From: Pseudovibrio sp. Alg231-02
GTDB lineage: Bacteria; Pseudomonadota; Alphaproteobacteria; Rhizobiales; Stappiaceae
Direction of reading: 5' to 3'
DNA length: 64,000 nt
Assembly: GCF_900143565.1 (NCBI RefSeq)
Contig: NZ_FREX01000010.1
Span: 71,015 to 135,014, forward strand
Below the pieces are notes generated by a model. It did not search any database. It was given only the letters and a program-made list of their open reading frames with translations, and had not been told where the DNA came from. Position numbers and translations under genes: made by a program. Positions 43,166-43,712 of the stretch are shown piece after piece (the first letter of the stretch is position 1; each line of letters opens with the position of its first letter).

Positions 43166-43172
43166 AAACCAA

Positions 43173-43206
43173 ATGGCCGGGCACTGTCCCGGTCATTTTT
43201 TTTGCA
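43173..43206 (+). terminator. Rho-independent terminator of uvrA
   Basis: ATGGCCGGG pairs with CCCGGTCAT (one G-U pair) around CACTGT and is followed by a run of eight T. Confidence 0.9.
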
Positions 43207-43544
43207 AAGACCACCACCCCAACAGTCTCTTTCCGCGAAAACAACACAAAATACCAGTCGGCGCCGCTCTATTACAAAACCTGTTCAAAGCCGGCGACAC
43301 ATTGAAATATGATTAAGTTTTCAGCACCAACTGCCTAAAAACAGCACTCCCAGCCCCTCAGGTATGCAGATTTGTGCCGCAAATCACAAAATTACCGCAC
43401 TGCACAATCGTTAATTTTGGCATTTATGTCTTTTTGAACAATGGTAGCGCCATCATTTGCCATAATGCCATGCATTTTTTGCATATCGGACATGCGAAAT
43501 GATGTGATGCACAATTGGAAAGTCTTTTGTATAAACCAACTCAA

Positions 43545-43699
43545 GGCCGCTGAGGAACTCCTCCCAATTAAACCTCGGCAGCCTAACATACAATCCTCAG
43601 GCAGCACCTCCTCCCAAGCTGCTTGATGGTTCTAAACAGAGATTTCCTCCCAGTTCTCTGTTTACTAGCTTCGCCCGTCGTTCCTCCCATCGACGGGCG
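43545..43699 (+). ncRNA. tandem array of four CCUCCC-loop hairpins (cuckoo/CcsR-like sRNAs)
   Basis: Four hairpins stand in a row, each with an anti-Shine-Dalgarno pyrimidine tract in its loop. H1, 43545-43583: GGC-C-GCTGAGG with CCTCGGC-A-GCC, loop holding CTCCTCCC. H2, 43599-43624: AGGCAGC with GCTGCTT, loop ACCTCCTCCCAA. H3, 43634-43663: AAACAGAGA with TCTCTGTTT, loop TTTCCTCCCAGT. H4, 43672-43699: CGCCCGTCG with CGACGGGCG, loop TTCCTCCCAT. The stems differ in sequence while loop motif and spacing are kept, which indicates selected RNA structure. Known relatives are the CcsR1-4 RNAs of Rhodobacter and the alphaproteobacterial cuckoo RNAs. No small DUF1127-type gene is seen just upstream, and no clear promoter was found. 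Confidence 0.78.
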
Positions 43700-43712
43700 T
43701 TAGCTGTTTTAA

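Follow-up and report, generated by a model that had tools for sequence, protein, structure and literature searches.

What are the repeated hairpins that follow uvrA in the marine bacterium Pseudovibrio sp. Alg231-02, and on what might their loops act? The repeats lie within a 64,000-nucleotide stretch of DNA, analysed as a whole and referred to here as the window, and occupy intergenic space between the end of uvrA (43165) on one side and the end of a convergent lipoprotein gene (43848) on the other. A preliminary description of this DNA had placed between these two genes, outside any coding sequence, a tandem array of four hairpins presenting CCUCCC in their loops. Coordinates, fold and shuffling analysis all bear this out. 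The fold of window positions 43544-43706 (+) consists of four consecutive hairpins with CCUCCC unpaired in each loop (CCTCCC starting at 43560, 43610, 43646 and 43683). Its minimum free energy of -68.2 kcal/mol compares with -40.1 +/- 3.4 kcal/mol in dinucleotide shuffles (z = -8.2), none of the 200 shuffles being equally stable. The array and its immediate surroundings comprise the following features.

43171..43198, + strand: terminator-like hairpin of uvrA, setting the array apart from uvrA transcription
43544..43584, + strand: hairpin H1, loop with CUCCUCCC; an additional 5′ module beyond the Rfam match
43592..43631, + strand: hairpin H2, loop with CCUCCUCCC; opens the alpha-r14 match
43633..43664, + strand: hairpin H3, loop with UUCCUCCC
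43666..43706, + strand: hairpin H4, loop with UUCCUCCC; the strongest stem, followed by GTTTTAA
43848..44513, - strand: convergent lipoprotein gene, matching no Pfam family; synteny marker of the alpha-r14 locus

The complete CCUCCUCCC is confined to the H2 loop, and the loops of H1, H3 and H4 carry (U)CCUCCC. Stems had initially been put at 9-11 bp, with 7 in H2; the fold corrects H2 to 9 bp plus an outer helix of 4 bp and adds one mismatch to the stem of H1. H4 is probably the terminator hairpin. In the 5.96-Mb genome, for which all counts given here come from pattern searches, CCTCCC triplets with 20-50 nt spacing occur in just two places and the reversed triplet pattern in none.

To characterize the evolution of the array, we surveyed the uvrA region across the genus, where it was found in all 16 Pseudovibrio genomes. 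Behind uvrA, four hairpins are present in 14 of these genomes, five in another (L056) and none in G010 (L055). G010 does, elsewhere, hold two near-identical tandem hairpin sets (L156 2700-3250, -). Across the Pseudovibrio loci the loops are nearly fixed and the stems variable, those of H1-H3 most of all. Compensatory stem changes in related genomes, the comparison that the preliminary description had proposed as a check, were indeed found: two-sided changes affect 15 of 30 stem pairs in an alignment of 14 Pseudovibrio sequences, and none of 500 shuffles, which ignore relatedness, attained the values observed for pairing, covariation score or two-sided changes. When the partners were slid by one column, a control that preserves relatedness, pairing fell from 92.5% to about 36%. 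Exchange of 5′ and 3′ arms between species weakened every hairpin, at an average cost of about 4 to 5 kcal/mol per hairpin; H3 was assessed in this way because MAFFT had misplaced its divergent stems in the full alignment.

Covariance-model searching, also suggested beforehand, yielded a match to Rfam RF02344 (ar14) at 43589..43705 (+) that spans model positions 1-123 of 123 and covers H2-H4. The E value of 3e-9 speaks for the match, but its score of 54.3 bits falls 4.5 bits short of the gathering score of 58.8, a value that is a database cut-off and no biological feature. No Pseudovibrio copy reaches this cut-off, the best scoring 57.2. Among the 61 genomes around the window, RF02344 matches occur in 48, of which 21 exceed the cut-off. 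Roseibium, Mesorhizobium, Phyllobacterium, Paramesorhizobium, Chelativorans, Nitratireductor and two MAGs have alpha-r14 genes that exceed the threshold close to this convergent lipoprotein gene; trmFO lies beyond the lipoprotein gene at the relatives' loci, and in relatives from the family uvrA lies on the opposite side of the locus from the lipoprotein gene. By position, the window array is thus placed as the orthologue of these genes. Since it occupies the same genomic place, we assign it to the alpha-r14 (NfeR1/SmelA075/SmelA099) family of anti-Shine-Dalgarno small RNAs, alias cuckoo RNAs, and synteny provides the strongest argument for this assignment. The initial proposal of a cuckoo/CcsR-type small RNA with Shine-Dalgarno-pairing loops is therefore supported in kind by the Rfam match, the synteny and the covarying stems around fixed loops, whereas the nearest named family is alpha-r14/NfeR1 and not the CcsR RNAs of Rhodobacter.

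Comparison with described members delimits what the Pseudovibrio locus adds. The three-hairpin SmelA075 and the four-hairpin SmelA099, both with CCUCCUCCC loops, were reported in 2011 together with the proposal that they form a single family whose members differ in module number (PMC3927594). Like alpha-r14/NfeR1 (RF02344; SmelA075) of Sinorhizobium and its relatives, the window array presents CCUCCUCCC-type loops on unlike stems; unlike it, the array has four hairpins (five in L056) instead of three, carries UUCCUCCC in two of its four loops and scores below gathering. The SmelA099 family model, compared here by description only, likewise comprises four consecutive anti-Shine-Dalgarno hairpins in one RNA (PMC3927594). 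Four-hairpin members have accordingly been known since 2011, and the additions made here are the place of the gene in Pseudovibrio, its form with four to five modules, the retention of a LysR-type box alongside the loss of DUF1127, and a testable set of targets.

Further elements of this kind were noted in the survey. A second cuckoo array in the same genome (L157 3850-4060, -; G000:C14:374316-374452 and neighbourhood) comprises five hairpins with CCTCCC and closes with a terminator, a long stem with a T-run; it is conserved in the genus and has no DUF1127 gene nearby. A two-hairpin anti-Shine-Dalgarno element with a terminator (L158 3136-3230, +; G000:C22:26636-26726; RF02344 45.7 bits) is also present in other Pseudovibrio genomes. 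In one family relative, the three-hairpin alpha-r14 unit stands in four tandem copies, an apparent duplication of the unit (L143 3780-4450, +). Weak RF02344 places at C5, C12 and C15 of the same genome were rejected as chance, with no CCTCCC in the matched stretch. Other weak Rfam matches in the region (sX13, ctRNA_p42d, anti-hemB and others) lie far under their cut-offs, that to sX13 being a resemblance only.

In relatives, the hairpin sets are usually directly preceded by a DUF1127 gene of 45-50 aa (Pfam PF06568, E 1.4e-17 and 2e-16 in two examples), an association named the CIN1 locus (PMC10253847), in which the DUF1127 gene shares a transcript with the hairpins. This gene is absent from all 16 Pseudovibrio loci, in agreement with the earlier remark that none was visible upstream. 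That remark had set the locus apart from its Rhodobacter counterpart; the absence stands, but it marks a loss at what is a DUF1127 locus in relatives and not a different kind of locus. Because relatives carry the gene at the same place, its absence in Pseudovibrio would represent a derived loss, and the simplest history is one in which the gene disappeared from between promoter and array. Pseudovibrio genomes retain one or two DUF1127 genes, compared with three to six in the other searched genera of the family. The surviving gene at G000:C8:1187832 stands alone, and its protein scores 39 bits against 52-58 bits for the array-linked DUF1127 proteins of relatives. In another genome of the order, eight consecutive CCTCCC hairpins follow a DUF1127 gene beside trmFO (L163 3491-3790, +).

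The sequence upstream of the array contains conserved promoter-like features.

43471..43484, + strand: TGCA-N6-GCAT, a LysR-type (LsrB-like) box spanning about -72 to -59 relative to the predicted start
43485..43516, + strand: conserved promoter stretch ATATCGGACATGCGAAATGATGTGATGCACAA, between the box and the -10, from an alignment of 15 genus loci
43530..43535, + strand: putative -10 TATAAA, its position conserved, with the first CCTCC 30 bases further on in most loci

Transcription is predicted to start near 43543. No -35 element was recognisable upstream of the array, scanning for the sigma-70 consensus detected no promoter there, and inspection by eye revealed no RpoH-type site like the RpoHI/RpoHII promoter of the CcsR/CIN1 locus. 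The box precedes the first loop motif by 89 bases; it is exact and at the same distance in 12 of the 15 Pseudovibrio array loci and degenerate in L057, L058 and L060, which are deeper-branching members. Many relatives carry TGCA-N6-GCAT about 115-155 bases 5′ of the DUF1127 start. In S. meliloti, nfeR1 has an LsrB site TGCA-N6-GCAT at -72 to -60, supported by gel shift (PMC10746234); relative to a start that is predicted for the window, the box here matches this published site in sequence and position, about 72 bases 5′ of the start in both (PMC10746234). The nfeR1 promoter of S. meliloti also has an NtrC site.

We then searched the genome for ribosome-binding sites complementary to the loops. 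GGGAGGA-N4-10-ATG occurs at 89 sites, against 13 for the reversed pattern. Behind these sites lie 56 distinct ORFs (at least 80 aa), at least 12 of which encode solute-binding proteins of the periplasm (five DctP of the TRAP type, six of the ABC type and one TctC). AAGGAGG was taken as the control because TAAGGAGA, a candidate control with 21 sites, was too rare. With the control motif, 1 of 43 ORFs is a solute-binding protein, compared with 12 of 56 (Fisher p = 0.006), a contrast somewhat inflated because the control ORF set is richer in spurious frames. GGGAGGA precedes 5 of the 25 DctP genes of the genome (hypergeometric p about 1e-5 if 4500-5400 genes are assumed). Solute-binding proteins are the class expected from the NfeR1 literature, and the TRAP subset was noticed afterwards. 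Many sites in this genome read GGGAGGA instead of the 16S-optimal AAGGAGG. NfeR1 of S. meliloti silences ABC-transporter genes through its three loops, which act redundantly; it also silences ntrB by pairing where translation starts, and loop mutants fail to do so (PMC10746234). Solute-binding protein genes would be targets in both systems, by prediction in Pseudovibrio (PMC10746234). Such targets would be common to the other cuckoo arrays of the same genome.

Collectively, we consider it probable (about 0.78) that the array is the Pseudovibrio alpha-r14 (NfeR1-type, cuckoo) anti-Shine-Dalgarno small RNA, with four modules, no DUF1127 gene, a separate promoter under the probable control of an LsrB-like regulator, and likely targets in nutrient uptake. 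In the mechanism that we propose, the RNA would be transcribed from this promoter with a LysR regulator (LsrB-like) as activator, and the UCCUCCC of each loop would pair with GGGAGGA at ribosome-binding sites, blocking translation and lowering the mRNA. The four modules may be redundant, the last probably ending the transcript, which as an alpha-r14 RNA would be expected to be Hfq-independent. The genes likely to be targeted serve nutrient uptake, chiefly those that encode the periplasmic solute-binding components of TRAP and ABC transporters.

Other readings account for parts of this evidence. The array could behave like CcsR1-4 of Rhodobacter sphaeroides and other CIN1 cuckoo RNAs, being transcribed under a stress sigma factor and cleaved by RNase E into RNAs of one hairpin each, which would work together with a DUF1127 protein encoded elsewhere in the genome. 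Its four separable modules with anti-Shine-Dalgarno loops resemble CcsR1-4 (PMC10253847), relatives show the CIN1 arrangement of DUF1127 gene plus hairpins, and one DUF1127 gene is left, at G000:C8:1187832. That gene, however, stands alone, with its protein scoring below the array-linked ones, the locus itself has none, and the promoter carries a LysR box, with no RpoH site recognised by eye; we regard this reading as unlikely. It is less probable still that the loops imitate the 16S anti-Shine-Dalgarno end as a general ribosome mimic, binding many mRNAs and damping translation globally without choice of target. Such a role would suit the CCUCC core and the several arrays per genome, but the loops favour GGGAGGA over AAGGAGG, and one protein class is enriched among the GGGAGGA genes.

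Read on the minus strand, the loops contain GGGAGGA and hence GGA motifs in repeated hairpin loops, as in a CsrB/RsmZ-like sponge titrating a CsrA-type protein. The plus strand is indicated by the conserved promoter, by the Rfam match and by the syntenic DUF1127 genes upstream, and this very improbable reading was rejected for its polarity. The least probable view of all, that the repeats are non-functional or belong to the 3′ end of uvrA with no separate role, finds some support in their intergenic position; it is already contradicted by compensatory changes around fixed loops, by the conserved promoter and by the terminator ahead of the array.

Under the alpha-r14 assignment, the locus represents a gene of a known small-RNA family that lies under the Rfam cut-off, so that annotation pipelines would miss it, and the match of its loops to the ribosome-binding sites of TRAP/ABC receptor genes offers concrete targets for testing. 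More tentatively, Pseudovibrio may have uncoupled a cuckoo RNA from DUF1127, with the array grown to four or five modules and acting as a stand-alone, LysR-controlled repressor of TRAP/ABC uptake. If this uncoupling is true, neither the maturation nor the action of cuckoo RNAs would require a DUF1127 partner protein. It is debated whether the targets of DUF1127 proteins are RNA or protein (PMC12501420), and a genus that has the box and the array but no DUF1127 gene at that place constitutes a natural test of the RNAs' need for DUF1127.
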